Shown: piece by piece, positions 30,179 through 47,751 of the stretch | Numbering within the stretch: the stretch's first letter is position 1 | Layout: the number at the start of each line of letters is the position of its first letter | From: Acidimicrobiaceae bacterium | Lineage (GTDB): Bacteria > Actinomycetota > Acidimicrobiia > Acidimicrobiales > RAAP-2 | Direction of reading: 5' to 3' | DNA length: 64,000 bases | NCBI GenBank assembly: GCA_027314705.1 | Contig: DAHVAJ010000032.1 | Span: 1-64,000, forward strand | Position numbers and translations under genes: made by a program | The notes under the pieces: model-generated | Database searches by the model: none | What the model saw: the letters and a program-made list of their open reading frames with translations, nothing else | What the model was told of the DNA's origin: nothing

Positions 30179-30272
30179 GGGTCAGCCTCCTTTCGTGGCA
30201 CGAGGGCTTCGGCCGGACCGGGCCGACCGGCTCGTACGCGACCGCCTCCCGGCGGACGACCCGGCGATCGGC

Positions 30273-30602
30273 TCAGACCGCCGGCTCGACGACGGCGTCC
30301 ATGCTCGCCGCACCGCTGTCGGGCACCCGTGGCTGCCGCCATACCTCGACCGGGAACGACACGTTGATCAGCGAGTAGGACAGCGCCAGCAGCCGACCGG
30401 CGTCGTCCGGCAGGGCGTCGAGGGCGTAGCCGTCCAGATGGGCGAGGATCTGCTCGAACCGCGGGAAGGCGGCGTCGTAGAACTCCTGCATCTCGTCCAT
30501 CGAGCTGGCCAGCCGCTTGGCGTAGCGCTCGGCCTCGGTCGGGAGGCACCAGTCGGCGAATGGCTCGAGATCGGCGAACCCGGGGGGCAGCGCTGCAGTC
30601 AT
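30273..30602 (-). CDS. Small uncharacterised protein (109 aa), 13 bp downstream of Rieske oxygenase gene
   Basis: MTAALPPGFADLEPFADWCLPTEAERYAKRLASSMDEMQEFYD…VEVWRQPRVPDSGAA; no recognised domain. Confidence 0.72.
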   Translation of the reverse strand: MTAALPPGFADLEPFADWCLPTEAERYAKRLASSMDEMQEFYDAAFPRFEQILAHLDGYALDALPDDAGRLLALSYSLINVSFPVEVWRQPRVPDSGAASMDAVVEPAV

Positions 30603-30615
30603 CGGGGCACCTCGC

Positions 30616-31908
30616 TCAGGACGCGGCCGGGGCGTCGACGGGCGCCCCGGACTTCGCGAAGTCGGCGACGTACCCCCGAGCCGTCCTGTGCAGGTGGCGG
30701 AGGAGGATCTCCTGGTCGTTCAAGGGGAACTCGGTGACGGCGCGCGACTCGATCATGGTCTGGGTGGCCTCGAGTGTGTTCCCGTCCTGCAACGCGTACT
30801 CCTTGAAGGTGACCGCCGCCAACTCCTGGCGGAGGCGCTCCGTGGCGTTCTTCGGAGGGACGAAGTAGAGCGTCCCCTCGAAGACGTGGGTGTTGAAGGA
30901 GGTCGGCCAGTAGTGGTAGGTGAGATACCAGCCCGGCGCCCAGACCAGCAGCATGAAGTTGGGGAAGAAGACGAAGGAGTCCACGCCCCAGTTCGGGGAG
31001 CGCGCCGGGTTGACCGCTCCGGGCAGCGGGTCCAGGCCGTCGATCCCGGGCCGGTCCCACGGCCCGAAGAGCCCACTGCGCAGCACGTTCTCGATCGGCT
31101 TCACCATCGAGGGGTCCTTCGGCGGAGACATGCCCCCCCACGACGAGACCATTCCGTGCGGACCGTCGATCACGTACGAGAGCGCCTCGAACCCGTACCC
31201 CTGCAGTTTGCGCGCCTCGTCGTCGGTCGCCTGCTTCGCGTGCAGGACGGGTGCGTGGTAGAACTCGGCGAACGCGTCGACGAAGAGCTTCCAGTTGCTC
31301 CCGACGTTGGCCCGGTACTTGTAGACCTGGGTCATCTCCCCGAACGGGTACCCCTCCAGCCCGGCGCCGAGGCCGCCCAGGTACTCCTTGACCGACGTGG
31401 CGTTGTCCGGGTCGAGGTTCACGAAGATGAACCCTTCCCACACCTCGGTCTGCACGGGAACGAGCCCGAAGGCGTCCTTGTCGAGGTCGAAGAACTCCGA
31501 CTCCTGCTGGACGAAGGTCAGCGAGCCGTCGAGGTCGTACCGCCAGCCGTGGTACTTGCAGGTGAACTGCCGGCAGGTCCCGTTGGTCTCCTCGTTGGGA
31601 TAGTCGTTCCAGACCAGCTTGTTGCCACGGTGTCGGCAGATGTTGTGGAACCCGCGGACGTCGCCGCCCCTGTCCCGGACGATGACCACCGAGGTGCCCG
31701 CACACGGGAGCTCCTTGGTGAAGTAGCGGCCGGCCCGGGGGACCTGCTCGACCCGACCGACGTTCAGCCACGTCCTCGAGAAGATCGCCTGGCGCTCGAG
31801 CTCGTAGAACTCGGGCGAGATGGAGTCCTCATAATCGACCGGGCCCGTACCCAGCTCGGGGTAGTGCTCCGTCCAGCTTCCCTCGGCTGGCTTCGGGAAG
31901 TGCGCCAT
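30616..31908 (-). CDS. Rieske non-heme iron ring-hydroxylating oxygenase, alpha subunit
   Basis: CRH-x23-CKYH Rieske motif; DAFAEFYHAPVLH mononuclear iron site. Confidence 0.9.
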   Translation of the reverse strand: MAHFPKPAEGSWTEHYPELGTGPVDYEDSISPEFYELERQAIFSRTWLNVGRVEQVPRAGRYFTKELPCAGTSVVIVRDRGGDVRGFHNICRHRGNKLVWNDYPNEETNGTCRQFTCKYHGWRYDLDGSLTFVQQESEFFDLDKDAFGLVPVQTEVWEGFIFVNLDPDNATSVKEYLGGLGAGLEGYPFGEMTQVYKYRANVGSNWKLFVDAFAEFYHAPVLHAKQATDDEARKLQGYGFEALSYVIDGPHGMVSSWGGMSPPKDPSMVKPIENVLRSGLFGPWDRPGIDGLDPLPGAVNPARSPNWGVDSFVFFPNFMLLVWAPGWYLTYHYWPTSFNTHVFEGTLYFVPPKNATERLRQELAAVTFKEYALQDGNTLEATQTMIESRAVTEFPLNDQEILLRHLHRTARGYVADFAKSGAPVDAPAAS

Positions 31909-31940
31909 GCGGTAGTCCCTCCTGGTGGGGCGGTGGGGTC

Positions 31941-31970
31941 ACGATATCATCGATCTCCATAAAAGAGAAG
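31941..31970 (-). promoter_or_regulatory. Rieske promoter: TATCGT -10 (31941-31946) preceded by element CTTCTCTTTTATGGAGATCGATG (31948-31970)
   Basis: Element near-identical to 46508-46529. Confidence 0.42.
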
Positions 31971-31974
31971 CCTG

Positions 31975-33627
31975 TTATCGGCGGGGGCCGGCGAGCGGTG
32001 CGCCGCCCAGCCGGCCCTGGCGGAGCTGCTGGCGGAGCACGTACTTCTGCACCTTCCCGGACGGCGTCCGAGGGAACTCGTCCACCTGGTAGAGGGCCTC
32101 GGGCCACTTCTGCCGGGCCAGCCCGGCACCGGCCAGGCGGGCGCGCACCTCCCCCATGGTCGGCAGCGTGCCGCCGTCCCGCACCCGCACCACGGCGGCG
32201 GCGTGCTCCCCGAGACGCTCGTCGGGCTCGGCCACCACGCAGACCTCGGCCACCTGGTCCAGCCCCATCAGCAGCTCCTCGATCTCCGCCGCGCTGATGT
32301 TCTCCCCACCGCGGATGATCACGTCGGAGATGCGGTCGGTGATGGTGAGGAAGCCGGCGTCGTCCAGCACCCCCACGTCACCGGTGCGGTACCAGCCCGC
32401 TTCGTCGAATACGGCGGTGGTCAGCTCGGGGTCGACGTAGCCGACGAAGCAGTCCGGCCCGCGGCTCAAGATCTGGCCGTCGGGGTCGAGGCGGAGCTCC
32501 ACCCCGGGCAGTGCCCGGCCGTCGGTGGTGAGCCGCTTCTCCTCGGGGTCGTCGAGCAGCGAGCCGGTGATCGAAGGGTGCTCGGTGCTGCCGTAGGAGC
32601 GGAACGACGCGATCCCGAGCGCGGCGGCCCGCCGCGTCACGGCCACCGGCACGGGCGAGCCGCCCAGGCCGGCAAACGGGAGCAGGGCCAGGTGCTCGGA
32701 GGTGAAGTCCGGATGGTCGAGCAGGCTGGTCAGGAAGTACGTCGCTCCTCCCCCCACGCCGAGGCCCTCCTCCCGCATCAGCCGGAGCACCGCTCCCGGG
32801 TCCCACACGTCGATCAGGTCGACCGACTGCGCGCGCAACATCGGAACCAGGAAGGCGTTGAGCATCCCGATGAAATGGCCGACCGGTGCCCCCGTGATCG
32901 CGGGCGGTCCCCCCTTGGGGAACAGGTAATCGAGCTGACGGGTCTCGCACCCGATGGTCCGGTGCGAATGGATGACCCCCTTCGGGTCGCGGGTGGTCCC
33001 CGAGGTGAACCCGATGATCGCCGGCGCATCCGGGTCGACGGGCAGGGGCCGGGCGAGGGGCTCACCGCCGAGGAGCGACCCGAACGGCACCGCCCCCGGC
33101 GGGAGACCGCCGGCGGGTGGAGCGCCGACCACCAACCACCGGGCGTCGGACCGCCCGGACAGGAGCTCCTCGTAGTTGGCCAGGTAGTCGTTGTGGCCGA
33201 AGCGGTGGGCGGTGACCACCACCGCCGGCGCCACCGTCCGCAGGATGTAGTCGACCTCCTTCGGACCGTAGAAGTGCACGACGGGGACGACCACCGCACC
33301 GAGGTAGGCGGCGGCCCAGAACGTGATGCCGGCCTCCACCCAGTTCGGGAGCTGGAACACGACGACGTCCCCCGGCCCCACCCCGTCAGCGGCCAACGCG
33401 CCGGCAAGCGCCCGTGCCGACCGGTCCACGTCGGAGAAGGTGCCCTGCCACGGACGCCCCGCGGATCGGACCCGGAAGGGCAGGCCGCCCCTCCGGCCGA
33501 GCCCGGCTTCGACCATCTCCCCGAGGGTCTGGTCGGTCCACCACCCCTCGTCCCGGTACCGGCGCGCCCGATCCTCCGGCACCGTCCTCAGCCTCCAGCG
33601 TGCGCCGACCCCGCCCCGCTCCCCCAC
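31975..33627 (-). CDS. AMP-dependent acyl-CoA synthetase/ligase
   Basis: GFTSGTTRDPKGVIHSH, YRTGDVG, GRISDVIIRGGENISAAEIE; exact start uncertain. Confidence 0.9.
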   Translation of the reverse strand: MGERGGVGARWRLRTVPEDRARRYRDEGWWTDQTLGEMVEAGLGRRGGLPFRVRSAGRPWQGTFSDVDRSARALAGALAADGVGPGDVVVFQLPNWVEAGITFWAAAYLGAVVVPVVHFYGPKEVDYILRTVAPAVVVTAHRFGHNDYLANYEELLSGRSDARWLVVGAPPAGGLPPGAVPFGSLLGGEPLARPLPVDPDAPAIIGFTSGTTRDPKGVIHSHRTIGCETRQLDYLFPKGGPPAITGAPVGHFIGMLNAFLVPMLRAQSVDLIDVWDPGAVLRLMREEGLGVGGGATYFLTSLLDHPDFTSEHLALLPFAGLGGSPVPVAVTRRAAALGIASFRSYGSTEHPSITGSLLDDPEEKRLTTDGRALPGVELRLDPDGQILSRGPDCFVGYVDPELTTAVFDEAGWYRTGDVGVLDDAGFLTITDRISDVIIRGGENISAAEIEELLMGLDQVAEVCVVAEPDERLGEHAAAVVRVRDGGTLPTMGEVRARLAGAGLARQKWPEALYQVDEFPRTPSGKVQKYVLRQQLRQGRLGGAPLAGPRR

Positions 33628-33718
33628 GCCACCCTCCTCGTCCGGACCGTCCCACCGTCACTCTCGCATGCGCCCCCGGTCGCGTGCCACCGTCATTGCC
33701 GGTCCGGGAGAACTTCGT

Positions 33719-33724
33719 TATCGT
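33719..33724 (+). promoter_or_regulatory. -10 box TATCGT upstream of SnoaL-like gene
   Basis: TANNNT box; gene has RBS aggagg before ATG 33769. Confidence 0.35.
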
Positions 33725-33768
33725 CGGCCGGCGTTGCACCACCGCCACGACGACCAGGAGGATCCGAC

Positions 33769-34200
33769 ATGGGCAGCACGCCCGTCGCCGACGTCATCGA
33801 GCTCGAGCAGCTGCTGGCCCGGTACGCCCTGGGCATGACCAGGGACGACGTCGACGCGGTCCTCGACGTCTTCACCCCCGACGGCACCTACAGCGCCTTC
33901 GGCGAGGTCTACCCGCTCGCCGACTTCCCGGCGTTGGTGGCCGCCGCCCCCAAGGGCCTGTTCCTCGTCGGGCCACCGGCGCTCGCCCTCGACGGCGACA
34001 CCGGCTCGGGACAGCAGCCGCTGTGCTTCGTCGAGCAGACCACCCACGCCATGCGCATCGGGTACTACACGGACACCTACCGTCGAACCCCCGACGGTTG
34101 GCGCCTCGAGAGCCGGGCGATGACCTTCCTCCGCAAGAGCGGGGCCCGTGACTCCGGTCGGGCCCACGACCCCGCCCGACCTCCGCCCACCGTCCCGTGA
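33769..34200 (+). CDS. SnoaL-like / NTF2-fold protein
   Basis: LEQLLARYALGMTRDDVDAVLDVFTPDGTYSAFG…YYTDTYRRTPDGWRLESRAM. Confidence 0.82.
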   Translation: MGSTPVADVIELEQLLARYALGMTRDDVDAVLDVFTPDGTYSAFGEVYPLADFPALVAAAPKGLFLVGPPALALDGDTGSGQQPLCFVEQTTHAMRIGYYTDTYRRTPDGWRLESRAMTFLRKSGARDSGRAHDPARPPPTVP

Positions 34201-35351
34201 CCGGCGTCGAGGTCGTGGCCGACGACCTGGTGGAATTCCGGGCGTCCCTGGACACCTGGCTCGACGCCAACGGCGCCGTCCTGGCCCCCGGGTACGAGGG
34301 CGCCGGCGAGCTGGACCAGCAGATGGACCAGCTCGCCAAGGTCAAGGCGCTGCTCTTCGACGCGGGGTGGGGGCGCGCCGGGTGGCCCGAGCGGGTCGGG
34401 GGCCTCGGCGGGTCGACCCTGACTCGCGCCTACCTCGGGGAGGCGCTCGCCGCCCGGGACCTGGTCGAGCCCGGTCTCTTCTCGATGACCGAGGTGCTGG
34501 CGCCCACCGTGATCGAGTACGCCGCTCCCGCACTCGCCGCCTCCGTGGTCCCGGCCCTGCTCCGCGGGGACGAGACGTGGTGCCAGGGGTTCTCCGAGCC
34601 GGACACCGGGAGCAACCTGGCCGCGCTGGCCTGCCGGGCGGTGCGCACCGACGACGGGTGGCGGGTCACCGGCGAGAAGCTCTGGACGAGCCTGGCCCAG
34701 TACGCCGACCGCTGCGTCCTCCTCGTCCGGACGGGCACGACCGAATCGGCCCACCGGGGGATCACCGCCCTCTTCGTGGACATGGACTCCCCGGGGATCA
34801 CGGTGCGGCCGATCGGGACCATGCACGGCGGCGCCGAGTTCTCCGAGCTCTTCCTCGACGACGTCGTCGTCCCCTTCTCCCGCACCCTGGGGGACGAGGG
34901 GGCCGGCTGGACCGTGGCCATGGACCTCCTCCCCTACGAACGCAGCACCTCGCTCTGGCACCGGGCCGCGTTCCTGCACCGCCGGCTCCAGGAGGCCCTC
35001 GAGTCCGCCCCGCCCGAGGCGCTCGACCCGTCGAGGCTGGGCGAGGTCACCGAGCTGCTCTACGCCTTCCGGGCCCGGTCGCGGGGCACGCAGCACCGCA
35101 TGGCCGACGGCGACCGCCTCGGGCCCGAGACCTCCATCGACAAGGTCCTGTTGGCCACGGCGGAGCAGGCGGTGTTCGACCTGGTCGCCGACGCGCTGGC
35201 CCCCGAGGTCACGACGGGGGACGATCCGCGGAGCCGGCGGTGGCGCTCCGAGTACCTGTACTCGCGGGCCGCCTCGATCTACGGAGGGAGCGCCGAGATC
35301 CAGCGGAACATCATCGCCCGCCGCCTCCTCGACCTGGGGGACGACCGGTGA
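34197..35351 (+). CDS. Acyl-CoA dehydrogenase, long subunit
   Basis: GFSEPDTGSNLAAL, EKLWTSLAQYADRCVLLVRT, IYGGSAEIQRNIIARRLLDLG. Confidence 0.9.
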   Translation: MTGVEVVADDLVEFRASLDTWLDANGAVLAPGYEGAGELDQQMDQLAKVKALLFDAGWGRAGWPERVGGLGGSTLTRAYLGEALAARDLVEPGLFSMTEVLAPTVIEYAAPALAASVVPALLRGDETWCQGFSEPDTGSNLAALACRAVRTDDGWRVTGEKLWTSLAQYADRCVLLVRTGTTESAHRGITALFVDMDSPGITVRPIGTMHGGAEFSELFLDDVVVPFSRTLGDEGAGWTVAMDLLPYERSTSLWHRAAFLHRRLQEALESAPPEALDPSRLGEVTELLYAFRARSRGTQHRMADGDRLGPETSIDKVLLATAEQAVFDLVADALAPEVTTGDDPRSRRWRSEYLYSRAASIYGGSAEIQRNIIARRLLDLGDDR

Positions 35352-36313
35352 TGGACCCCGAGGACCTCGTGCTCTTCGAGCGCAGCCTCGGCGACGCCGC
35401 CGGCCGCGCCACCGGATCCGGCCTCGACGCCGCGCTCGACCAACTGGGGTGGCGTGACGCACTGGCCGACGACCCTTCCGCCGCCGTCTCCTTGCTGTTC
35501 GAGCAGCAGGGGGCGGCCGGCACCACCTCCTCGGCCCTCGGGCTGGTCCTGGCCGACGCGCTCGTCGGGAACGCCGGACCCGGGACGGGAACCGTGCTGC
35601 CCGCCATCGGCGGGTGCACCCCGCCCGGCACGGTCGTCGCCGGGCGCCTCCGCGTCCGGGGCCTGGCGCCCGCCGGCCTCGTCGACCAACCGTCAGCCCT
35701 GGTGGTCGCCTCGAGCGGTGCCGACCTGGCGGCGGTCACGGTGCCGACGGCATCGCTCGGGCTGCGTGCGATCGGAGGCGTCGACCCGGAACTGGGCCTG
35801 CTCGAGGTGACGGGCGACGTCGACCGCACCCGTCCGGCCAGGGCCGTCTCCCCGGCGACGTGGGCCGCCGCGGTGGCCCTCGCCCGCCTGGCCGTCGCCC
35901 ACGAACTGGTCGGAGCCTCGCGCGCCATGCTGGGGCTGGCCTGCGACCACGCCCGGGGTCGCCTCCAATTCGGCCGCCCGATCGCCTCCTTCCAGGCCGT
36001 CCGCCACCGCCTGGCCGAGACGCAGGTCGCCATCTCCACGGCGGAGGCCATGCTCGACGCGGCGTGGCTCGACACCACGCCGGAGAGGTCGGCCATGGCC
36101 AAGGCCGTGGCCGGGCGCCAGGCGAGGACCACGGCCCGGCACTGCCAACAGGTCCTGGCCGGCATGGGCTTCACCGTCGAGCACCCGTTCCACCGCTACG
36201 TCCGCAGGTCGCTGGTGCTCGACGCCCTCCTCGGCACGGCGGCATCGCTCACGACGTCGCTCGGGGCCGAGCTGATCGACCGGCGCCAGCTGCCACCCCT
36301 CCTCCCCCTCTGA
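35351..36313 (+). CDS. Acyl-CoA dehydrogenase, short subunit
   Basis: ACDHARGRLQFGRPIASFQAVRHRLAE, QVLAGMGFTVEHPFHRYVRR; TGATG overlap. Confidence 0.85.
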   Translation: MDPEDLVLFERSLGDAAGRATGSGLDAALDQLGWRDALADDPSAAVSLLFEQQGAAGTTSSALGLVLADALVGNAGPGTGTVLPAIGGCTPPGTVVAGRLRVRGLAPAGLVDQPSALVVASSGADLAAVTVPTASLGLRAIGGVDPELGLLEVTGDVDRTRPARAVSPATWAAAVALARLAVAHELVGASRAMLGLACDHARGRLQFGRPIASFQAVRHRLAETQVAISTAEAMLDAAWLDTTPERSAMAKAVAGRQARTTARHCQQVLAGMGFTVEHPFHRYVRRSLVLDALLGTAASLTTSLGAELIDRRQLPPLLPL

Positions 36314-36359: not shown

Positions 36360-37352
36360 TCAGCCGGCCGCGCGCTCCGGCGCAACGTCGAGGACGACCT
36401 TCCCCACGACCTGGCCGTCGGCCACCATCGTCAGCGCGGCGACCACCTCGTCGAGCGGGAAGGAAGCCCCGAGGTGCGGGCGCACGCGCCCGTCGGCCAG
36501 GAGCCCCCAGAGCTCGTCGTCGTTGCGTTGGAGCTCCTCGGGGCAGTGCTCGGCGAAGTCCCGGAACTGGAACCCGAGGATCTGGCAGCCCTTCAGCAGC
36601 ACCAGGTTGAGCGGGATCCTCGGGATCTCCCCCGAGGCGTAGCCGACGGTCACGAAGCGGCCGCCCCAGTGCAGGGACCGCAGGGCGGGCTCGGCGAGGT
36701 CACCACCGACCGGGTCGACGACGACATCCGCACCCCCGGGGAGCACCTCTCGGAGGGCGGGGCGCAGGTCGACGGTGGTGTGCTGGACCAGATGGGCGGC
36801 CCCGCCGGCCCGGGCGACCTCCAGCTTGGCCGGGGACGACGCCACCGCCGTCACCGAGGCGCCGAGAAGGCTGCCGAGGCAGACGGCGGCCAGGCCGACA
36901 CCGCCACCGGCGCCCAGGACGACGAGCTCGTCACCCTTCTGCAGCCGGGCGACGGAGCGGAGGACGTGGTGCGCCGTCCGCCATGCCACGCCGAAGGCGG
37001 CGGCGTGGCGGTCCCCGACGCCCGGGGGGACGACCCGGACCGCCGCCGGGTCCACGACCACTTCCTCGGCGAAGGCGCCGACCATCACGGTCCCCGCGAC
37101 CCGGTCGCCCACCGACACTCCCCTGGCCCCGTCGGCGACCTCGGTCACCACGCCCACGAACTCGCTCCCGGGTACGAAGGGGGGTGGCACGGTGGCCTGG
37201 TACCTGTCGGCGACCAGGAGCACGTCGGGGAAGTTGACGGCGGCGGCACCCACGCGGACCCGCACCTGTCCGGCGCCGAGCTCCGGTGCAGGGAGTTCGT
37301 CGACCACCACGACGTCGGGCGTCCCGTGGGAACGGCAGACGGCGGCCCGCAC
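36360..37352 (-). CDS. Zn-independent MDR NADPH:quinone reductase-like oxidoreductase
   Basis: VRAAVCRSHGTPDVVVVDELPAPELG…, VLGAGGGVGLAAV, PVGGDLAE. Confidence 0.87.
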   Translation of the reverse strand: MRAAVCRSHGTPDVVVVDELPAPELGAGQVRVRVGAAAVNFPDVLLVADRYQATVPPPFVPGSEFVGVVTEVADGARGVSVGDRVAGTVMVGAFAEEVVVDPAAVRVVPPGVGDRHAAAFGVAWRTAHHVLRSVARLQKGDELVVLGAGGGVGLAAVCLGSLLGASVTAVASSPAKLEVARAGGAAHLVQHTTVDLRPALREVLPGGADVVVDPVGGDLAEPALRSLHWGGRFVTVGYASGEIPRIPLNLVLLKGCQILGFQFRDFAEHCPEELQRNDDELWGLLADGRVRPHLGASFPLDEVVAALTMVADGQVVGKVVLDVAPERAAG

Positions 37353-37353
37353 C

Positions 37354-38136
37354 TCAGCGACCCCTCCACACCGGGTCACGCTTTTCCACGTAGGCCCGGG
37401 CGCCCTCCCTGGCGTCCTCGCTGGCGAAGACCACCGTCGACCACTCCGCCTGACGCTTCCGGGCCGCCACCGGGTCCGACACGCTCAGACGGACAAGCTC
37501 CTTGGAGGCGGCCAGGCCGAGGGGGCCGTTGGCGGCGATCCGCTCGGCCATGGCGATGGCCGTGGCCCGGACCTCCGCCGGTGCAACGACGGCGTTGACG
37601 AGCCCGACCTCGTAGGCACGGGAGGCATCCACCAGGTCACCGGTGAGCGCCAGCTCGAGCGCCACGGCCAACGGGATCCGGGTGCCGAGCATGGTGCCCC
37701 CACCGGCCGCGAAGAGCCCGCGCTTCACCTCAGGGAGGCCGAACCGTGCCTCGCTGGAGGCGACCACCAGGTCACAGCCGAGCAGCAGCTCGAGGCCGCC
37801 GGCCACGGCCGCACCGTTGGCCGCGCCGACCACCGGGACGCCGATCTCGCCCCGCAGCAGCCGGTGGAACGCCTCCGTCGGCTCGCCGGGGGAGGTCCCG
37901 GGCACGTCCCCCTCCGAGAACGACCGGAGGTCCATGCCCGAGCAGAAGGCCCGGTCGCCGGTGCCGGTGAGGACGACGGCACGGATGTCGGGATCGGACT
38001 CGGCCTCGATGAGCGCCGCGCCGAGCCCGGCCACCATGACCGTCGTCAGCGAGTTGCCGGCCTCGGGCCGGTTCATGCGGAGCAGGGAGAGCGGGCCCCG
38101 GCGTTCGCCCACCAGCTCGGGGTCGGCGGCGCTCAT
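37354..38136 (-). CDS. Enoyl-CoA hydratase/isomerase
   Basis: FCSGMDLRSFSE, NGAAVAGGLELLLGCDL; ATGA overlap with upstream kinase gene. Confidence 0.9.
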   Translation of the reverse strand: MSAADPELVGERRGPLSLLRMNRPEAGNSLTTVMVAGLGAALIEAESDPDIRAVVLTGTGDRAFCSGMDLRSFSEGDVPGTSPGEPTEAFHRLLRGEIGVPVVGAANGAAVAGGLELLLGCDLVVASSEARFGLPEVKRGLFAAGGGTMLGTRIPLAVALELALTGDLVDASRAYEVGLVNAVVAPAEVRATAIAMAERIAANGPLGLAASKELVRLSVSDPVAARKRQAEWSTVVFASEDAREGARAYVEKRDPVWRGR

Positions 38137-39143
38137 GACGGGTAGTCCGACGTCTCGGCCAGGTCGGCGGCGCCCTGCATGAGTTCCAGCACCACCGGTC
38201 CGTACGACTGGAGCATGGCGTTGTCGCCCGCCCGCTGGAACCCCTGTTCGAGGACGATGGCCAGCTTCCACTTGGCCAGCACGCAGTAGTAGTCGATGTC
38301 ATCGACCTGCCGCCCGGACACCTCGGCGTACCGGTCGAGGATGGCCGAGCGAGACGGCATGCCCGTCATGTCGACGTAGGTGACCCCGGAGACCTCGTCG
38401 GGGTGCTCCGGCCAGCCGTTGACCACCCAGGCCAGGTCGAGCTTGGGGTCGCCCACGGTGCCCATCTCCCAGTCCACGATGGCGGCCATCCGGGCCGGTG
38501 CCCCATGGCGGTACATCACATTGGCGAACTGGTAGTCGCCGTGCATCAGACCGGGGATGAAGTCGATCGGCCGGTGCCGGCGCAACCAGGCCGATGCCTC
38601 GCCGAACCCGGGCAGCTCGCGTCCCTTGATGCGCTCGAGGAACGCCGTCCACCGGTCGACCTGGCGCTCGTGGAAGCCGTCGGGGTGCCCCAGGTCGGCG
38701 AGGCCCTTCGCCTCCCAGTCGACCCTCGACAGCAGGGAGACGCCGTCGACGAGCTCGAAGGCCAGCCCCTTCCTGGCCTCGAGGTCGGCATCGAAGGGCG
38801 CCGGCCACCCGTCGGTGGTCATCGGCGACCAGCCGTCGACGTAGCCCATCAGGTAGAAGGTGCGCCCGAGGACCGACCGGTCGTCGCAGGCGGCCACGGC
38901 CGCCGTGTGGGGGACGTCGGTCCCATCGAGCGCCTCGATGATCCGCCACTCGCGCAGGATCCCGGCATCGCGGGTCTCGGGGGCCGACGGCGGTGGGATC
39001 CGTAGGGCAGCGTGCACCTCGCCCCGGCGGATCTCGTAGATCTCGTTCTGGGTCCCTCCCGAGACGAAGGCGTGCTCGATGGGCGCGCCCACCCCGAGCC
39101 CCTGCCCGTCCATCCACGTGGCCAGCCGACCGACGTCGATCAT
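38133..39143 (-). CDS. APH-family phosphotransferase (ACAD10/11 N-domain / LvaA-like)
   Basis: GLMHGDYQFANVMY, IVDWEMGTVGDPKLDLAW kinase motifs; overlaps downstream and upstream genes by ATGA. Confidence 0.87.
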   Translation of the reverse strand: MIDVGRLATWMDGQGLGVGAPIEHAFVSGGTQNEIYEIRRGEVHAALRIPPPSAPETRDAGILREWRIIEALDGTDVPHTAAVAACDDRSVLGRTFYLMGYVDGWSPMTTDGWPAPFDADLEARKGLAFELVDGVSLLSRVDWEAKGLADLGHPDGFHERQVDRWTAFLERIKGRELPGFGEASAWLRRHRPIDFIPGLMHGDYQFANVMYRHGAPARMAAIVDWEMGTVGDPKLDLAWVVNGWPEHPDEVSGVTYVDMTGMPSRSAILDRYAEVSGRQVDDIDYYCVLAKWKLAIVLEQGFQRAGDNAMLQSYGPVVLELMQGAADLAETSDYPS

Positions 39144-40444
39144 CAGAGGTTCCCCACTTCGTGTTCGAGGAGTGCAGCGAATTTCTGGCGCGCCGCGTCT
39201 CGGCGCTTCGGGAGGTGCTGGGTCGGCCACAGGTCGTCAGTGGCACGGTGGTCCCGCAGCACCTGGCGGGCAACGGTCACCTTGTGCACCTCGGTGGGAC
39301 CGTCGGCGAGTCCCATCACGCTCGCCCCGATCAGCATCTGGTGGAACGGCATCTCGTTGCTGACGCCCAGCGCACCGTGCACCTGCATGGCCCGCCAGGT
39401 GATGTCGTGGAGGACACCCGGCATCAGGACCTTGATGGCGGCGATGTCCTTGCGGACCTTCCGGTAGTCGTTGTGCTCGTCGATCAGCCACGCCGTGTAG
39501 AGCACGTAGAGCCGGAACTGCATCAGCTGGGCGTACGAGTCGGCGATGTACCCCTGCACGAACTGCTTGTCTGCCAGCAGGCCGCCCGAGACCTGGCGGC
39601 TGAGCGCCCGCTCGCACATGGCGTCGAGTCCTCTCCGGGCCAGGCCGATGGTGCGCATGGCGTGGTGGATGCGTCCGCCGCCCAGACGGGTCTGCGCGAT
39701 GGCGAACGCCTGGCCCTCGCCGCCGAGCACCGCCTCGCCCGGAAGCCGCACGTCGTCGTAGTGGATCAGGGCGTGCGCTCCCTCCCCCTCGGGCTCGCCG
39801 GCCAGGCCGACATCACGGACGATCTCGATGCCGGGCGTGTCGGTGGGGACGAGGAACATCGACATGCCCTCGTAGGCCGACACGTCGGGGTTGGTCACCG
39901 CCATCACGATGAGGAACGACGCCGTCCGTGCGTTGGAGGAGAAGAACTTCCAGCCGTTGAGGACCCACTCGTCGCCGTCCTTGACGGCGCTGGTCTCGAA
40001 CCGGGTCGGGTCCGAGCCTCCCTGTGGCTCGGTCATCGAGTAGCAGGAGAAGATCCTCCCCTCCAGGAGCGGGCGCAGGTAGCGCTCCTTCTGGGCCTCG
40101 GTGCCGTAGTGGGCGATGATCTCGGCGTTGCCGGTGTCGGGCGCCTGGCAACCGAAGACGATCGGGGCCCAGGAGGAGCCACCGAGGATCTCGTTGAGGA
40201 GCGAGAGCCTGAGCTGCCCGTGGCCCTGGCCGCCGAGCTCGGGGCCCAGGTGGGTGGCCCACAGGCCCTGGGCCCGCACCTGTTCCTTGAGCGGGTCGAG
40301 GATGGCGGAGAGGGTCGCGTCGGGGGGCGTGAATTCGAGCCCCCTCCAGAGCACGTCGATCGGCTCCACCTCCGTCCGGACGAACTCCTCCGCCCAGTCC
40401 AGTTTGGTCTGGTACGCCGGGTCGGTCGCGAACTGCCAGGCCAT
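39143..40444 (-). CDS. Acyl-CoA dehydrogenase, ACAD10/11-like (LvaC-like)
   Basis: YSMTEPQGGSDPT, GMAVTNPD region, LADGPTEVHKVTVARQVL (ACAD11-type LADGPDEVH). Confidence 0.88.
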   Translation of the reverse strand: MAWQFATDPAYQTKLDWAEEFVRTEVEPIDVLWRGLEFTPPDATLSAILDPLKEQVRAQGLWATHLGPELGGQGHGQLRLSLLNEILGGSSWAPIVFGCQAPDTGNAEIIAHYGTEAQKERYLRPLLEGRIFSCYSMTEPQGGSDPTRFETSAVKDGDEWVLNGWKFFSSNARTASFLIVMAVTNPDVSAYEGMSMFLVPTDTPGIEIVRDVGLAGEPEGEGAHALIHYDDVRLPGEAVLGGEGQAFAIAQTRLGGGRIHHAMRTIGLARRGLDAMCERALSRQVSGGLLADKQFVQGYIADSYAQLMQFRLYVLYTAWLIDEHNDYRKVRKDIAAIKVLMPGVLHDITWRAMQVHGALGVSNEMPFHQMLIGASVMGLADGPTEVHKVTVARQVLRDHRATDDLWPTQHLPKRRDAARQKFAALLEHEVGNL

Positions 40445-40468: not shown

Positions 40469-40487
40469 GGCAGAATAACATTCTGCC
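40469..40487. promoter_or_regulatory. Perfect 19-bp palindrome GGCAGAAT-AAC-ATTCTGCC (putative TetR operator)
   Basis: Between divergent ACAD and TetR genes; covers -10 boxes on both strands. Confidence 0.75.
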
Positions 40488-40488
40488 C

Positions 40489-41169
40489 ATGGAGAATCCA
40501 TCTCTGCCCGTGCCGGACGACGTCGCCTCCAGGATCGCCCGGAAGACCCTCGACAAGCGGGTGCCCGACTACACCGGCGAGGTGCGCCGCCTGATCGACG
40601 CGGGACGTGCCGTCATGCGGCGCTGCGGGACCGACTCCCGGCCCCGGGTGGCCGACATCGTGTCCGAGGCAGGGCTGTCCAACGAGGGCTTCTACCGGCA
40701 CTTCGCCTCGAAGGACGCCCTCGTCGCCGCCATCCTCGACGACGGCACCGAGCGGTTGCTGAGCTACCTGGACCACCAGATGGCCAAGGAGCCGACGGCG
40801 GTGGGCAGGGTCCGCCGCTGGGTGGAGGGCATCCTGTCCCAGGCCGTCGACGAGGAGAGCGCCACCACCACCCTCGCCGTCCTGTGGAACGCGGCGAGCC
40901 TGGGTCCGACGGTGACCGTCTCGCACGCCTCGACCAGCGCCCGGCTGGCGACGCTGCTCCGTGATCCGTTCACCGAACTCCGCAGCGACGACCCGGAGCT
41001 CGACGCCGAGCTGGTCGCCCACGCCGTGGTCGGCAGGCTCCACGACCTCCTGTGGGGACGACGCAGGCCGACCCGGGCGGAGACCGACCGACTGGTCAGG
41101 TTCTGCCTGGCGGCCTGCACCGGCGCCGGCGCCGCCGACGGTGGGCGCGGGCGGAGCGGCGGCGGCTAG
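40489..41169 (+). CDS. TetR-family regulator
   Basis: RVADIVSEAGLSNEGFYRHFASKDALVAAIL HTH. Confidence 0.9.
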   Translation: MENPSLPVPDDVASRIARKTLDKRVPDYTGEVRRLIDAGRAVMRRCGTDSRPRVADIVSEAGLSNEGFYRHFASKDALVAAILDDGTERLLSYLDHQMAKEPTAVGRVRRWVEGILSQAVDEESATTTLAVLWNAASLGPTVTVSHASTSARLATLLRDPFTELRSDDPELDAELVAHAVVGRLHDLLWGRRRPTRAETDRLVRFCLAACTGAGAADGGRGRSGGG

Positions 41170-41906
41170 CGGGTCACGGGGCCCGGACGCGGCACGCCGG
41201 TGCCCACGCCGTGGAGGATGAACTCCCAGAGCTCCTCGGCCGGATCGGGGTCCACCGTGCGGACCGACGTCCCGCCGATCGTGGTCGAGAACGTATTGAA
41301 CATGATCACTTCGAGCACCATGCCGGCGATCGGGCTGTGGCGGAGCCCGGAGCGGATGCAGCCCGCCCGCTCGGCGTCCTCGAGCACCTCGCCGAACAGC
41401 GTGACCAGCGGATCGAAGGCCAGGGCCGCCTCGGTGGGATGACTGGTGAGCAGCTGCTGGGCGAAGTCCACCATCACCCACGCCGTGGCGAGCGGCTCCA
41501 CCGGTTCCCCGGGCAGTGGTGGACGGCACAGCTTGTAGTACTCGATCACGAACCGGTGGATCCGCTCCAGGGGATCGTCCTCACCGGCGATCCGCTCGCG
41601 GAGGTGGTCCGCCGTCGAACGCACGGACTCCTCGAAGAGGGCGAGCAGCAATTCGTGCTTGCCGCCGAAGTACTGGTAGAAGAGGCGCAGGGACTGACCG
41701 GAGCGTTCGACCACCTCGTGCACCGTGAAGTCCCGACCCGATTCGCCCTCGTTCATCAACTCGAGCGCGGCGTCGAGGAATCGCTGCAGGCGGCTCTCGG
41801 CCCGGGCCCTGGCCGTGAACAGCGACCGGGCCACGGCCTGCTCACGCCGACTCAGGGCCGGCTCCTCCGCCACGGCCTCGTCGACCTCGAGTTCACGTTC
41901 CGACAT
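41166..41906 (-). CDS. TetR-family regulator
   Basis: FTVHEVVERSGQSLRLFYQYFGGKHELLLALFEE HTH; start at ATG 41906. Confidence 0.88.
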   Translation of the reverse strand: MSERELEVDEAVAEEPALSRREQAVARSLFTARARAESRLQRFLDAALELMNEGESGRDFTVHEVVERSGQSLRLFYQYFGGKHELLLALFEESVRSTADHLRERIAGEDDPLERIHRFVIEYYKLCRPPLPGEPVEPLATAWVMVDFAQQLLTSHPTEAALAFDPLVTLFGEVLEDAERAGCIRSGLRHSPIAGMVLEVIMFNTFSTTIGGTSVRTVDPDPAEELWEFILHGVGTGVPRPGPVTR

Positions 41907-41927
41907 CCCCCGCAGTGTAGTGGAGAT

Positions 41928-41941
41928 GGCAGAAACGCCAG
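41928..41941. promoter_or_regulatory. Inverted repeat TGGC-AGAAAC-GCCA upstream of second TetR gene, sharing TGGCAGAA with 40468
   Basis: Direct reading. Confidence 0.4.
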
Positions 41942-42016
41942 TATCCCAGGAGGCGAAGCGGGGCTGTCCCGTCCGGTGACGCCCTGGGCCCGACGCGAGA
42001 ACCCGGTTCTGGGCCC

Positions 42017-42802
42017 CTAGCGCTCCTCGCGCCGGGCCAGGAGGCGGTCGAGGTTGGCCCGAAGCTCGGGCGACGTGAACGACCGGTCCTCGGCGGCCAG
42101 GGCGAAGTCCAAGGTGGCGACCACGGCCCGTTCGAGGTGGAGGTTGAGGATGCGCCTGGTGTCCTCCACCGCCCGGCGGGGGAGCCCGGCGATCCGGTGG
42201 GCGCAGGCCAGGGCCTGCTCGACGACCACGTCGTCGGCGCACACGTGGTTGACCAACCCGATCTGCGCGGCCCGCTCGGCCGGGATGCGTTCACCGGTCA
42301 GGGCGTACTCCTTGGCCAGCTGGAGGCTGGTCAGCAGGGGCCAGGTCACCGGGCCCCCGTCGGCCGCCACCAGACCGATCATGACGTGCGGGTCGGCCAG
42401 GTGGGCGCTCTCGGCCATGTAGACGATGTCCGACAGGGCGACCAGGCTGCAGCCCAACCCCACCGCGGGCCCGTTGACGGCGGCCACGATCGGTGCCCGG
42501 CACGCCACCATGCCGGTCACGATCTGCCTGCCGTGGACGAGGGTCTCCTGCCGGAGTGCCTCGTCCTTGGCCAGCTCGTCGAGGTAGGTGAAGTCACCGC
42601 CAGCCGAGAACGCCCGGCCGTTGCCGGTGAGCACCACCGCCCGGACGTCGCCGTCGGCGTCGAGCTGGGGGAACAGCTCGGCCAGCCCCTTGTGGAGCCC
42701 GCGGTTGGTGGCGTTGAGGTGGTCGGGCCGGTTCATCCGGACGATCCGGACCGGGCCGTCGTCCTCGACCTGGAGCTCGTCGGTCAACTGGTAGGCGCTC
42801 AC
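42017..42802 (-). CDS. Enoyl-CoA hydratase/isomerase
   Basis: FSAGGDFTYLDEL, VNGPAVGLGCSLVALSDIVY. Confidence 0.9.
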   Translation of the reverse strand: MSAYQLTDELQVEDDGPVRIVRMNRPDHLNATNRGLHKGLAELFPQLDADGDVRAVVLTGNGRAFSAGGDFTYLDELAKDEALRQETLVHGRQIVTGMVACRAPIVAAVNGPAVGLGCSLVALSDIVYMAESAHLADPHVMIGLVAADGGPVTWPLLTSLQLAKEYALTGERIPAERAAQIGLVNHVCADDVVVEQALACAHRIAGLPRRAVEDTRRILNLHLERAVVATLDFALAAEDRSFTSPELRANLDRLLARREER

Positions 42803-43935
42803 GAGGCGGGGAGGTGCAGGATCCGGCCGGCGACCAGGTTCCGCTGGATCTGCGAGGTCCCGCCCATGACGCTCTGGGACCGGCTGTAGAGGTACACCTT
42901 CATCAGGGTGTCGTCGGACCCGGTGGCTCGGGCGCCGCCGATCGAGAGCGCGGCATGGCCGACCGCCTGTTCGGTCCACGTCATGAGCAACTTGTCCACC
43001 GATCCCTCGGGGCCGTGCACGATTCCGTCGAGACGGTCCGAGAGCCGGCGACAGACGTGCATCCGCAACATCTCCGATTCGACGATAGCCCAGGTCAGGT
43101 CGCGGACCTCCTCGCCGCCGTAGCGGCCGGGGTCGGCCTTCACCAGGGCGACCAGGTCCTTCACCTGCTTGGCGTAGCGACCGGCGAAGCCCAGCTCGTG
43201 CGGCTCCCGCTCGTGGCTGACGATGGTCATGGCCAGTGGCCACCCTTCCCCGGGCCGTCCGATCATGTTGACGTCCGGGACGCGTGCGCCGTCGAGGAGC
43301 ACCTCGCCGAACTCCTTGGTGATCCCGTTGATCATGGGCAGCGGTCGCTGTTCGACGCCGGGCTGGCGCATGGGGAGGGCGAAGGCGGAGATCCCCCGGT
43401 GCCGGGCGACGTCGTGGTCGGTCCTGGCCAGGACCAGGCACCAGTCGGCGTCGTCGGAGTAGCTGGTCCACACCTTGTGGCCGGTGAGGACGTACTCGTC
43501 GCCGTCCCGGTCGGCCCGGGTCCGCAGCGACGCCAGGTCGGAACCGGCGTCGGGCTCGCTGAAGCCCTGGCACCAGCGGTCCCGGCCGTTCACGATCCCG
43601 GGGAGGAAACGGGCCTGCACCTCGCCGTTGCCGTGCTCGAGGATCCCCTCCACCAGGTAGCCCAGGCTCGGCCGGGCCGGTGCCCCGGCGGCGGCGAGCT
43701 CCTCGTCGACGATGACGTCGTAGACGCTCGGCAGGTCCTGACCGCCGATCGCGGTCGGCCAGGTCACGCCGAAGAACCCGCCGTCGTAGAGCGACTGGTG
43801 CCACGCCGCCTGGCCGGCCCAGTACTCGTCGTCGGTCGACGAGGTCGGCAGTCCGGGGTTGTGCACCTCGAGCCAGGCCCGCAGGCGGAGGCGGAATTCG
43901 GCCTCGGCGGGAGCGTCACCGAAGTCCACCGCCAC
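42799..43935 (-). CDS. Acyl-CoA dehydrogenase, long subunit
   Basis: [51 protein letters not shown]. Confidence 0.9.
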   Translation of the reverse strand: MAVDFGDAPAEAEFRLRLRAWLEVHNPGLPTSSTDDEYWAGQAAWHQSLYDGGFFGVTWPTAIGGQDLPSVYDVIVDEELAAAGAPARPSLGYLVEGILEHGNGEVQARFLPGIVNGRDRWCQGFSEPDAGSDLASLRTRADRDGDEYVLTGHKVWTSYSDDADWCLVLARTDHDVARHRGISAFALPMRQPGVEQRPLPMINGITKEFGEVLLDGARVPDVNMIGRPGEGWPLAMTIVSHEREPHELGFAGRYAKQVKDLVALVKADPGRYGGEEVRDLTWAIVESEMLRMHVCRRLSDRLDGIVHGPEGSVDKLLMTWTEQAVGHAALSIGGARATGSDDTLMKVYLYSRSQSVMGGTSQIQRNLVAGRILHLPAS

Positions 43936-44962
43936 CTCCGATCCCGTGGTGGGCGGCCACCCGGTCCAGGCTGGCTCCCACCCCGCCGAGCACGGCGGTG
44001 GAGAGCAGGGCCCGTCGCAGGTAGACGTGGGCGAGGCACTCCCAGGTATTGCCCGCGCCCCCGTGGACCTGGATGGCGGTCTCGCACGCCGTCCGCGCCG
44101 CACGGGCGCAGTAGGCCTTGGCCGCGGCTGCGGCAGCAAGGGCGTCGCCGGGCGCCAGTGCGTCGACCGCCCAGGCGGCGTGGCGGGCCGCGCTCCGCGA
44201 GCCCTCGGTCAGGACGTGGGCGTCGGCCAGGAGGTGCTGCACGGCCTGGAACGAGCCGATGGGCCGGCCGAATTGACGACGGATCGAGGCGTACCCGACG
44301 GCGAGGTCGACGCTCCCGCGCATCGTGCCCACGAGGTCGGCGCAGTCGAGGGCCAGTCCGAGCGCGGTCCACGCGGCCAGGTCGTCACCGGTGAGGGGGC
44401 GGCAGCCCGGACCCTCCACCCGCGTGGCGGTGGACGCCGGGTCGGCGGCGGCCCCGGGCCGGGTCAGGTCGGTGCCGACGCCGACCGGCCCCAGAGCGAC
44501 CGTGCCCAGTGCATGGCCCGCCTCGTCGGGCAGGAGCACCAGTGCGGCGGTCGCCCCCCGGGCGTCGACGGCCACGGCGTCGGAGGGCACCGCTCGGGCG
44601 TCGACCGCGGCCGCCGCGGCGAGCGAGCTGGCCAAGGCGACGGTCTCGGGGGCACCGGCCGGCGGCGCCCCGGCCAGCCGGCGCAGCTCGGCTGCCAACG
44701 TCGGTCCGAGGAACGGGACGTCGGCCAGCCCGCGACCGAGCTCCTCGGCGACCACCGCCGCCTCGACCGCGGAGGCGAGGGGTGTCCGTCCGTCCGGGGG
44801 GACCCGGAGTTCGCGCCAGCCCGAGGCGGCCACGGCCGCGTCGAGCCTGCCCGCCCGCTCGACGTCGCCGAGGCCCCGCACGGTGCCCGGGCCCAGCCGG
44901 TCGACGACCTGGGCGGCCGAGTCGCGGAGCGCCTGCTGCTCCGTCGTGAGTCGGACGTCCAT
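43916..44962 (-). CDS. Acyl-CoA dehydrogenase, short subunit
   Basis: YASIRRQFGRPIGSFQAVQHLLAD, QVHGGAGNTWECLAHVYLRRA. Confidence 0.87.
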   Translation of the reverse strand: MDVRLTTEQQALRDSAAQVVDRLGPGTVRGLGDVERAGRLDAAVAASGWRELRVPPDGRTPLASAVEAAVVAEELGRGLADVPFLGPTLAAELRRLAGAPPAGAPETVALASSLAAAAAVDARAVPSDAVAVDARGATAALVLLPDEAGHALGTVALGPVGVGTDLTRPGAAADPASTATRVEGPGCRPLTGDDLAAWTALGLALDCADLVGTMRGSVDLAVGYASIRRQFGRPIGSFQAVQHLLADAHVLTEGSRSAARHAAWAVDALAPGDALAAAAAAKAYCARAARTACETAIQVHGGAGNTWECLAHVYLRRALLSTAVLGGVGASLDRVAAHHGIGGGGGLR

Positions 44963-46497
44963 CAGGTGTCGGCGCCCGACGCCAACAGGACCGGGGTCCA
45001 CTCGTCCCGGAGCATCCGGCGAAGCACCTTCCCCGAGGGCAACCGGGGGATGGTGTCGACGACGACGACGTGACGCACCTGCTTGTACGTGGCCAGTGAT
45101 CCGGCCACCAGCTCCTGGATCTCGCCGGCCGCGGCGGGCCGTGCCGGGTCGAGCTGCACCGCGACGACCGGCACCTCGCCCGCCCGCTCGTCGACGAGCC
45201 CGAAGACGGCGCAGTCGAGCACCGACGGGTGGCTGCGCACGACCTCTTCGACCTCGGCCGGCGCCACCTGGAACCCGTTGACCTTGATCATCTCCTTGGA
45301 GCGATCGGTCAGGTGGACCCACCCCTCGGGCTCCAGCCAACCGACGTCGCCCGTCCGGTACCACCCCTCGGAAAAGGCGCCGACCGTCTCCTCCTCGGGG
45401 AGGTACCCGGCCATCACCGACGGGCTCCGGACCTGGATCTCGCCGATCCCGCCCGGGGGGAGCACCGTACCGGTGTCGAGATCGGCGACGCGCAGCGAGA
45501 CCCCCCCGGGGGGCAGGCCGGCCGAGTCGAGCCGCCAGGACCCCGGGTCGTCGACGGGGTTGCAGGTGATGACCGGCAGTTCGCTGGCCCCGTACGCGGG
45601 CAGCCACCGGACTCCCGTCCGCTCGGTGACCAGCCGGGCCACGCGTTCGCTGACCGGCGTGGCCGCCCAGATGATGTAGCGCAGCGACGAGAGGTCGTAC
45701 CGCTCGATGTCGGGGTGGTTGGCCATGGCCAGCGCGATCGGCGCCACGGCCATCTCGAGGGTCATCCGCTCGGACTCGATGCGGCCCAGCACCTCGTCGA
45801 GGTCGAACCGCGGATGCAGACGCACGCAGGCGCCGGCCGACGCCGCAGCCAGCAGGTTGAGCAGGCCGAGGATGTGGGAGGGCGGCGTGGCCACCTGGAA
45901 CCGGTCGTCCGGGCCGAGGCCCAGGGCGGCACACCAGTCCACCGTGGCGCAGCCCATCGACCGGTGCGTGTGGCGGACGGCCTTGGGCAGTCCGGTCGTA
46001 CCCGAGCTGAAGACCAGCACCGCCTCGTCCAGCCCGCTCGCCCCGGCGCCCGGCGTCCCGGCGCCCGGTGTCGCGTCGTCGGGGGCGCCCGCCGCTCCGA
46101 CCGCCCCGGGGTGGTCGAGGTCGGTGAGCCGGCCCCCGCCCATCAGGCCGGCCAGCAGCTCGACGGCGGGCCCGTCGGCCACGGCGTGGACGGGCCCGGT
46201 CAGCTCCAGGGCGTGCCGGGTCTCGACCGCCTTCCACGCCGGGCTGAGGAGCACGCCGGCCCCGCCGATCTTGGAGATGCCGTGGATCGCCACCACGAAC
46301 TCCGGTCGGTTCGACGTCATCAGGGCCACCCGGTCCCCGGAGCGGACGCCGCGGGCGAGGAGGTGCCGTCCGAAGGCGGTGCTGGCGTCGTCCAGGTCGC
46401 GGAAGGACCAGCGCTCGTCACCGGCCAGCACGGCGTCACGGTCACCGAACTGCGCCGCGGCCTGCTCCAGGGCGTGGTGCATCAGGGAGGCAGACAT
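44962..46497 (-). CDS. AMP-dependent acyl-CoA synthetase/ligase
   Basis: VFSSGTTGLPKAVRHTH, YRTGDVGWLEPEGWVHLTDRSKEMIKVNGFQVAP. Confidence 0.92.
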   Translation of the reverse strand: MSASLMHHALEQAAAQFGDRDAVLAGDERWSFRDLDDASTAFGRHLLARGVRSGDRVALMTSNRPEFVVAIHGISKIGGAGVLLSPAWKAVETRHALELTGPVHAVADGPAVELLAGLMGGGRLTDLDHPGAVGAAGAPDDATPGAGTPGAGASGLDEAVLVFSSGTTGLPKAVRHTHRSMGCATVDWCAALGLGPDDRFQVATPPSHILGLLNLLAAASAGACVRLHPRFDLDEVLGRIESERMTLEMAVAPIALAMANHPDIERYDLSSLRYIIWAATPVSERVARLVTERTGVRWLPAYGASELPVITCNPVDDPGSWRLDSAGLPPGGVSLRVADLDTGTVLPPGGIGEIQVRSPSVMAGYLPEEETVGAFSEGWYRTGDVGWLEPEGWVHLTDRSKEMIKVNGFQVAPAEVEEVVRSHPSVLDCAVFGLVDERAGEVPVVAVQLDPARPAAAGEIQELVAGSLATYKQVRHVVVVDTIPRLPSGKVLRRMLRDEWTPVLLASGADT

Positions 46498-46504
46498 CGG
46501 AAAT

Positions 46505-46552
46505 ATTCTTCTCTTTCATGAGATCGACGTCAACATCGGAGGGATGTATCGT
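46505..46552. promoter_or_regulatory. Compact divergent promoter: minus TTGACG-N17-AAGAAT (46533-46505), plus TATCGT (46547-46552); both predicted leaderless
   Basis: 63-bp intergenic region; -10 boxes 7-8 nt from start codons. Confidence 0.45.
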
Positions 46553-46560
46553 TCTCAGCG

Positions 46561-47751
46561 ATGGCTCCCGAGGTCTCCCGCCCCACCGCCACGACCTCGA
46601 CCGACCCCGACGTCCGGCGCGACATCGTCGACACCGTCCGTCGGTTCGTCGCCAACGAGGTCGCCCCGGTGGCGACCGCCCTCGAGCACGAAGACACCTA
46701 TCCAGCGGACATCGTCGCCCAGATGCGCGGGCTCGGCCTGTTCGGCGTGACCATCCCCGAGGAGTACGGCGGCCTCGGCCTGGACCTGCTCACCTACATC
46801 GGCGTCATCGAGGAACTGGCCTTCGGTTGGATGAGCCTGACCGGCGTCGTCAACACCCACACCATGGCTGCCACGCTGATCATGACGCACGGGAGCGACG
46901 ACCAGAAGCGGCGCTGGCTGCCGACCATGGCGACCGGCACGCGCCGCGGTGCGCTCTCCTTGTCGGAGCCCGACGCCGGCAGCGACACCCGAAACATCTC
47001 CTGCACCGCCGTGCGCGACGGGGACGAGTACGTCGTCAACGGCACCAAGGCGTGGGTCACCAACGGCGAGCGGGCCGGCATCGTCGCCCTGGCCGCCCGG
47101 ACCGAGGAGGGGATCTCCGCGTTCATTGTGGAGAAGGAGCCCGGTCCGCACTTCGAGGGCATCTCGACGGGCAAGCACGTGGGCAAGCTGGGCTACCGGG
47201 GCGTCGAGACCGTCGAGACCGTCGAGATGTCGTACACCGACCACCGGCTCCCGGCCGCCAACCTCATCGGCGAGGCCGGCCGCGGCCTGCCCCTGATCCT
47301 CGGTGTGCTCGAGGTCGGCCGCATCAACATCGCGGCACGGGCCGTCGGTGTGGCCCGGGCCGCCTTCGAGGCCGCCCTCGCCTACGCCCGGCAGCGGGAG
47401 ACGTTCGGCCGGCCGATCGGCGAGCACCAGGCCATCCAACTCAAGCTCGCCGACATGGCCACCCACCTCGAAGCGGCCCGCCTCCTCACCAGGAACGCCG
47501 CCGAGCGAAAGGCCGCCGGGCTCCGCTGCGACGTCGAGGCCGGCATGGCCAAGCTCTTCGCCAGCGAGACGGCGCTCGAGCTGGCCACCGAGTCGATGCG
47601 GATCCACGGAGGCATCGGCTACACGGTCGACCTTCCCGTCGAGCGCTACTACCGGGACGCGCCGTTGATGGTGATCGGCGAGGGTACGAACGAGATCCAG
47701 CGCCTGGTCATCGCCCGGGGCCTCCTGGCCCGGGGCCGGGACACCGACTGA
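46561..47751 (+). CDS. Acyl-CoA dehydrogenase (stand-alone type)
   Basis: [33 protein letters not shown] with catalytic-type EGT motif. Confidence 0.92.

Follow-up and report, generated by a model that had tools for sequence, protein, structure and literature searches.

Do a kinase gene and an acyl-CoA dehydrogenase (ACAD) gene that adjoin in an Acidimicrobiaceae genome encode the two halves of a pathway that acts on 4-hydroxyacyl-CoA by way of a phosphorylated intermediate? The two genes lie in an operon with a crotonase-family hydratase gene and a medium-chain dehydrogenase/reductase (MDR) gene, within the first 64,000 nucleotides of contig DAHVAJ010000032.1 (C80 in our contig numbering). 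This whole stretch, hereafter the window, has a G+C content of 71%; the source genome comprises 2.69 Mb in 131 contigs and is 93% complete. A first-pass annotation, made from the letters of the window alone, had read the locus as an operonic, split version of a phosphorylation-dependent 4-hydroxyacyl-CoA pathway. We consider it likely that the operon is a split module of the ACAD10/11 type (LvaA/LvaC type), which phosphorylates 4-hydroxyacyl-CoA and then eliminates the phosphate. Feature coordinates are collected in Table 1.

The kinase would use ATP to phosphorylate the hydroxyl group of 4-hydroxyacyl-CoA, giving 4-phosphoacyl-CoA. The ACAD would convert this product to 2-enoyl-CoA and phosphate, in an FAD-dependent elimination with no net redox change that would use the catalytic Asp, the FAD, and an Arg/His/Arg phosphate pocket. 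The crotonase, where present, would turn 2-enoyl-CoA into 3-hydroxyacyl-CoA, so that beta-oxidation could continue. We infer these three steps, by analogy, from ACAD10/11, LvaA/LvaC, and the split Burkholderia pseudomallei pair, which in vitro can stand in for one half or the other of human ACAD10 (PMC11342911); the substrate and the 4-position of its hydroxyl are predicted with them. The MDR may add a reduction step that uses NAD(P)H, with enoyl-CoA or an unsaturated precursor as its substrate, and the divergent TetR would repress the operon through a palindromic operator.

The ACAD frame runs from an ATG at 40444 to a TGA at 39145-39143, which overlaps the kinase ATG at 39143 by one nucleotide (TGATG). 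The kinase frame ends at 38133, overlapping by four nucleotides (ATGA) the hydratase frame (ATG at 38136, end 37354). After a gap of one nucleotide follows the MDR frame (GTG at 37352, end 36360), for which an alternative in-frame GTG at 37379 would lengthen the protein. The Pfam domains are Acyl-CoA_dh_N/M/1 (ACAD), APH (kinase), ECH_1 (hydratase), and ADH_N with ADH_zinc_N (MDR). The first-pass annotation had described four minus-strand genes, coupled or nearly so; its coordinates and junctions match ours exactly, and the motifs it quoted are present (HGDYQFAN at 201-208 and DWE at 224-226 of the kinase, LADGPTEVH at 379-387 of the ACAD).

One scan of species genomes found 540 stretches that encode a relative of the kinase. 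The neighbourhood counts given here refer to the best 80 of these, with neighbours identified by tblastn and only loci with enough flank counted; the loci are mutually related, and the fractions are not independent trials. They come mostly from Acidimicrobiia, Streptomyces, Frankiaceae, Mycobacteriaceae, Actinomadura, Rhodococcus, and Williamsia. In 63 of 77 loci the kinase gene is immediately preceded by the ACAD gene, and the commonest junction between ACAD stop and kinase start among the relatives is a 4-nt overlap. Because the same neighbours recur in many genera, the grouping is more than chance; the system is real and conserved. Its core is ACAD-kinase-MDR, since an MDR is found downstream of the kinase in 49 of 75 loci and a hydratase directly downstream of the kinase, in between, in only 24 of 75. 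The MDR is thus the more constant partner, and the hydratase an optional one. Both glutamates at the catalytic positions of the hydratase, E116 and E136, are kept in 24/24 relatives. By family the MDR resembles quinone reductases, and its domains are of the alcohol-dehydrogenase type; plasmids of Rhodococcus and Sphingomonas carry, close to the kinase gene, a gene annotated as "NADPH:quinone oxidoreductase family protein".

At E<=1e-40, 61 of 148 genomes of the class had a match to the kinase. Close orthologs are patchy, because at 1e-100 only 7 of 199 genomes of the phylum match. Among named relatives, the one nearest to the kinase (90% identical) is in an Acidimicrobiaceae metagenome-assembled genome (MAG; L104), where the cassette and its flanks keep a conserved order. 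On Rhodococcus plasmids the order is altered (MDR divergent, kinase then ACAD), with the trio kept and ABC transporter genes nearby. Kinases 72-73% identical to that of the window, with the cassette, were also found in contigs titled Bifidobacterium breve MAG (L124) and Acidobacteriota MAG (L111); these contigs are most likely misbinned or mislabelled.

Among solved structures, the best matches of the ACAD were Mycobacterium abscessus 4hr3, human ACAD11 (2wbi), and mouse ACAD11 (8v3u/8v3v), at 249-264 bits, and the best conventional ACAD reached only 161 bits. The catalytic Asp of mouse ACAD11 is D753; R626, H634, and R637 were modelled against the 4-phospho group, and nonconservative substitutions there were the most disruptive (PMC12440821). 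R253, H261, R264, and D381 of the window ACAD align with these four residues, the mouse chain as printed being one number below the numbering of that paper. The phosphate-pocket Arg/His/Arg and the catalytic Asp are invariant wherever covered in 65 ACAD relatives. D381 sits in the LADGPTEVH motif, where those conventional ACADs of the same genome that are covered carry Glu (EGT- or EGA-type).

The genome has 37 ACAD matches. We calculated a quick tree of 44 ACADs, including 11 conventional ones from this genome, with SH-aLRT supports and without bootstraps. The ACAD11-like group, which includes the window ACAD, was separated from the 11 conventional ACADs with an SH-aLRT of 99; the window ACAD did not group with simple fatty-acyl dehydrogenases. 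Inside the ACAD11-like group, it falls in an actinobacterial sister subclade; the group with ACAD11 and 4hr3 also takes in an ACAD from contig C37 of the same genome and one from a Sphingomonas plasmid. The exact HCMR motif is absent: the window ACAD and 62 of the 63 relatives covered have HAMR, as does 4hr3. The Cys of HCMR is not among the phosphate contacts named in PMC12440821. Because HAMR replaces HCMR, we file the ACAD as a sister branch and not as a member of ACAD10/11; it is a relative, not the ortholog, of these enzymes.

The best solved matches of the kinase were 9o56 (144 bits), 3dxp (Reut_A1007; 139 bits), and the mouse ACAD11 kinase domain (78-82 bits). The 25-hydroxy steroid kinase 9fsg (45 bits), Rv3168 (37 bits), and capreomycin phosphotransferase (28 bits) were weaker. 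D203 and N208 correspond to the catalytic Asp and Asn of the mouse kinase domain (D220 and N225), and D224 to the metal-site Asp; all are kept. R160 aligns with mouse R176, an Arg near the CoA cavity, and R64, beside the alpha-C Glu, probably corresponds to mouse R86, though the alignment numbering gives that mouse Arg as 84. These five residues and E65, like the HGD..N and DWE motifs as a whole, are invariant in 80/80 kinase relatives. The kinase tree was rebuilt without wrongly framed rows from the other APH genes of the genome, whose branches had 3-5 changes per site. It then placed the window kinase in a group with 9o56, 3dxp, and ACAD11 and left 9fsg and the genome's C18 kinase outside; placement among unrelated antibiotic or choline kinases, which the first-pass annotation had named as the contrary outcome, did not occur. 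The PDB molecule name of 3dxp is "putative acyl-CoA dehydrogenase" despite its APH-fold kinase chain, and was perhaps carried over from ACAD10/11 fusions.

AlphaFold models of the kinase and the ACAD reached mean pLDDT values of 76.6 and 69.7, a middling quality; they are poor in the kinase catalytic loop and in the C-terminal part of the ACAD, and were used for fold-level agreement only. The fold search with the ACAD model returned 4hr3, 8v3u, and 2wbi; Foldseek with the kinase model placed 3dxp first and 9fsg second.

Three further ACAD11-like ACADs are encoded in the genome, at C37:1456-2616 (HCMR), C11:66536-67750 (HAMR), and C43:6361-7413. In the last, the signature is broken to HCMN and the second Arg is lost (RLGAGRVYHCMN). 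No close relative of the window kinase adjoins any of the three; a distant APH-family gene lies about 2 kb from the C11 ACAD. A second ACAD11-type kinase, 33% identical to the window kinase, is encoded at C108:9023-9937 and is a possible partner of the unpaired ACADs.

Table 1. Coordinates of the operon, the divergent regulator gene, and the putative operator in the window.
Feature	Positions	Strand	Residues or domains
ACAD11-like acyl-CoA dehydrogenase, 433 aa, putative phosphate-eliminating enzyme	39143..40444	-	signature R253, R258, H260, H261, M263, R264, D381
APH-family kinase, 336 aa, putative 4-hydroxyacyl-CoA kinase	38133..39143	-	HGD..N (201-208), DWE (224-226), R64/E65, R160
Crotonase-family enoyl-CoA hydratase, 260 aa, optional cassette member	37354..38136	-	glutamates E116 and E136 at catalytic positions
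MDR, NADPH:quinone oxidoreductase (PIG3-like) type, 330 aa	36360..37352	-	ADH_N and ADH_zinc_N
TetR-family regulator, divergent, putative local repressor of the operon	40489..41169	+	
Perfect palindrome GGCAGAATGTTATTCTGCC, putative operator between the tetR and ACAD starts	40469..40487	.	

A spacing of 44 nt separates the starts of tetR and of the ACAD gene, which lie on opposite strands, and the palindrome between them is a perfect inverted repeat. Of 19 relatives with a divergent TetR, 18 carry its consensus, RGAAYNNTATTCTG, 33-55 nt before the ACAD start, a count that is partly circular since the consensus was derived partly from the counted loci; so do 10 of 39 relatives without TetR. None of 9,500 Markov-shuffled upstream regions contained RGAAYNNTATTCTG, and AGAAYNNTATTCT occurs a single time in the whole genome, at this operon. 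The 10 TetR-less loci and the single genomic site give the more independent support. Within the window alone the palindrome is unremarkable if mismatches are allowed; the case for it lies in its conservation. The site is conserved upstream of the ACAD and unique in the genome, which suggests that the TetR is a local repressor of this operon only, acting at the predicted palindromic operator.

Several observations weigh against a 4-hydroxyacyl-CoA module of the known kind. An ACAD of this type is not directly upstream of the kinase in 14 of the 77 loci. The "expanded cavity" proline of ACAD10/11, human P463 (PMC11342911), has its counterpart by alignment count in P94 of the window ACAD; among the 61 relatives covered it is Ser in eight, and so the feature is not strict. 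The ACAD lies in a sister subclade with HAMR instead of HCMR, so its substrate may differ. In Pseudomonas putida, LvaB acts with LvaA (PMC9399607), and the cassette has no room for an LvaB gene; because ACAD10/11 work without LvaB, this counts against LvaA membership only. The upstream open reading frames at ACAD-less kinase loci were read by eye as SDR (L065, L160), LLM-type (L142), and P450-like (L181).

The claims of the first-pass annotation can be narrowed accordingly. Its phosphorylation-dependent reading agrees with the family placement, the ACAD11-type residues, and the conserved linkage, and these sequence comparisons suggest that the chemistry is probably that of the known family, with the ACAD outside ACAD10/11 proper. 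The ACAD is of ACAD11 type rather than classical in that it groups with ACAD11 and 4hr3 and keeps the active-site residues; it is the genome's C37 ACAD with HCMR that groups with ACAD11 itself. The "own hydratase" and the MDR are both present, with the emphasis now reversed in favour of the MDR. The separate kinase and ACAD genes are confirmed, but the split arrangement alone is not new, being known from P. putida LvaA/LvaC and the B. pseudomallei pair (PMC11342911); what is new here is the divergent TetR gene with its conserved palindrome. The sequence lends no support to the suggested origin of the substrate from lactones or P450 products, nor to any particular chain length.

The same chemistry might act on a bulky terpenoid- or steroid-derived acyl-CoA, or on a hydroxyl that is not at C4, as one step of a larger ring- or side-chain pathway. 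We regard this as a serious possibility, somewhat short of an even chance; it partly refines the 4-hydroxyacyl-CoA proposal, and the confidence given to the two overlaps. The window is full of catabolic genes (Rieske oxygenase and reductase, P450s, FadD-type ligases, two-gene ACAD pairs, CoA transferases, thiolases, and an epoxide hydrolase), and the ACAD subclade distinct from ACAD10/11 also favours a bulky substrate, as does a block of ACAD3, ECH2, a two-gene ACAD pair, FadD1, and TetR2 that accompanies the kinase in G114 (L065), Frankiales (L142), and partly Actinomadura (L159). However, the neighbours vary so much between genera that the cassette looks portable and not bound to one pathway, and in an NCBIfam scan no scanned enzyme reached a curated cut-off naming a steroid or terpenoid pathway. 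The recurrent block favours a larger pathway in some hosts; elsewhere the cassette lies among other genes. We think it unlikely, though worth stating, that the HAMR branch is a distinct, Actinomycetota-wide ACAD10/11 branch, having a repressor of its own and a partner reductase, and doing ATP-driven deoxygenation of ring-derived hydroxyacyl-CoAs (phosphorylation, elimination, MDR reduction), and not simple entry of 4-hydroxy fatty acids into beta-oxidation. In the window, the recurrent block occupies 29225-36313 and 41166-49125 and also holds a Rieske oxygenase and an F420-type LLM protein; it is found with the kinase in several Actinomycetota orders (L104, L065, L142, and partly L159). The epoxide hydrolase and three cytochrome P450s lie at 3838-5046, 11997-14560, and 53146-54723.

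A kinase acting on a free alcohol, as the 25-hydroxy steroid kinase does, beside an ordinary co-transcribed dehydrogenase would be in keeping with 9fsg as the second fold match and with the remark of the authors of the steroid kinase study that similar phosphotransferases occur in Actinobacteria (PMC8449060). We judge it improbable: 9fsg reaches 45 bits, compared with 144, 139, and 82 for 9o56, 3dxp, and ACAD11, it falls outside their group in the tree with the C18 kinase, and the ACAD keeps a phosphate pocket that has no evident use in an ordinary dehydrogenase. That an antibiotic- or choline-kinase-like gene stands, functionally unlinked, beside a simple fatty-acyl dehydrogenase gene is strongly disfavoured and scarcely credible. 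The Pfam label of the kinase is APH only, and its top NCBIfam entries, for capreomycin and viomycin phosphotransferase, fall far below cut-off (28 vs 390 and 20 vs 400 bits); against this stand the kinase-ACAD linkage across Actinomycetota, the ACAD11-type active site, and the ACAD11-type kinase match. An identity of the kinase itself as an antibiotic or choline kinase was rejected on these NCBIfam scores, the 28 bits to capreomycin phosphotransferase among solved structures, and the tree position with 9o56, 3dxp, and ACAD11.

Not until 2024-2025 was a reaction assigned to ACAD10/11, and how widely it occurs in bacteria has barely been explored. A literature search found no actinobacterial study of this cassette, which is weak evidence of novelty as subscription papers were mostly outside its reach; the HAMR branch appears uncharacterised in the searched literature, as do its regulator and its reductase partner. 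The cassette is common, compact, and has its own apparent switch, which makes the substrate question directly testable. A kinase of this family can easily be mistaken for an antibiotic phosphotransferase or, like 3dxp in its molecule name, for an acyl-CoA dehydrogenase.

Among known systems, the Sterolibacterium denitrificans 25-hydroxy steroid kinase (9fsg) shares the APH fold and phosphorylates a hydroxyl so that the phosphate can leave; it differs in its free steroid substrate (a tertiary alcohol), its distant sequence, and its tree position outside the window kinase group. By sequence, no solved structures match the kinase better than 3dxp and 9o56, and 3dxp also leads by fold, but the two score only 139-144 bits. 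The putative ACAD 4hr3 is the best solved match of the window ACAD by sequence and fold, and both carry HAMR; unlike the window ACAD, 4hr3 groups with ACAD11 in the tree. The P. putida lva operon, compared here by its published description, likewise has a separate APH-like kinase and an ACAD11-type ACAD in one operon, and LvaC has the catalytic Asp and active-site signature of ACAD10/11 (PMC12440821). In contrast to lvaABCDE, the cassette lacks lvaB, lvaD (4-keto reductase), and lvaE (ligase), has an MDR and often a hydratase, and is accompanied by a divergent TetR and palindromic site instead of the activator LvaR. Mammalian ACAD10 and ACAD11 combine a kinase and an ACAD for the same proposed two-step reaction, and the active-site residues are kept (the window ACAD scores 249-256 bits and the kinase 78-82 bits to ACAD11); they are fusions, whereas here the two activities would reside in two proteins, with the ACAD in the HAMR sister subclade.

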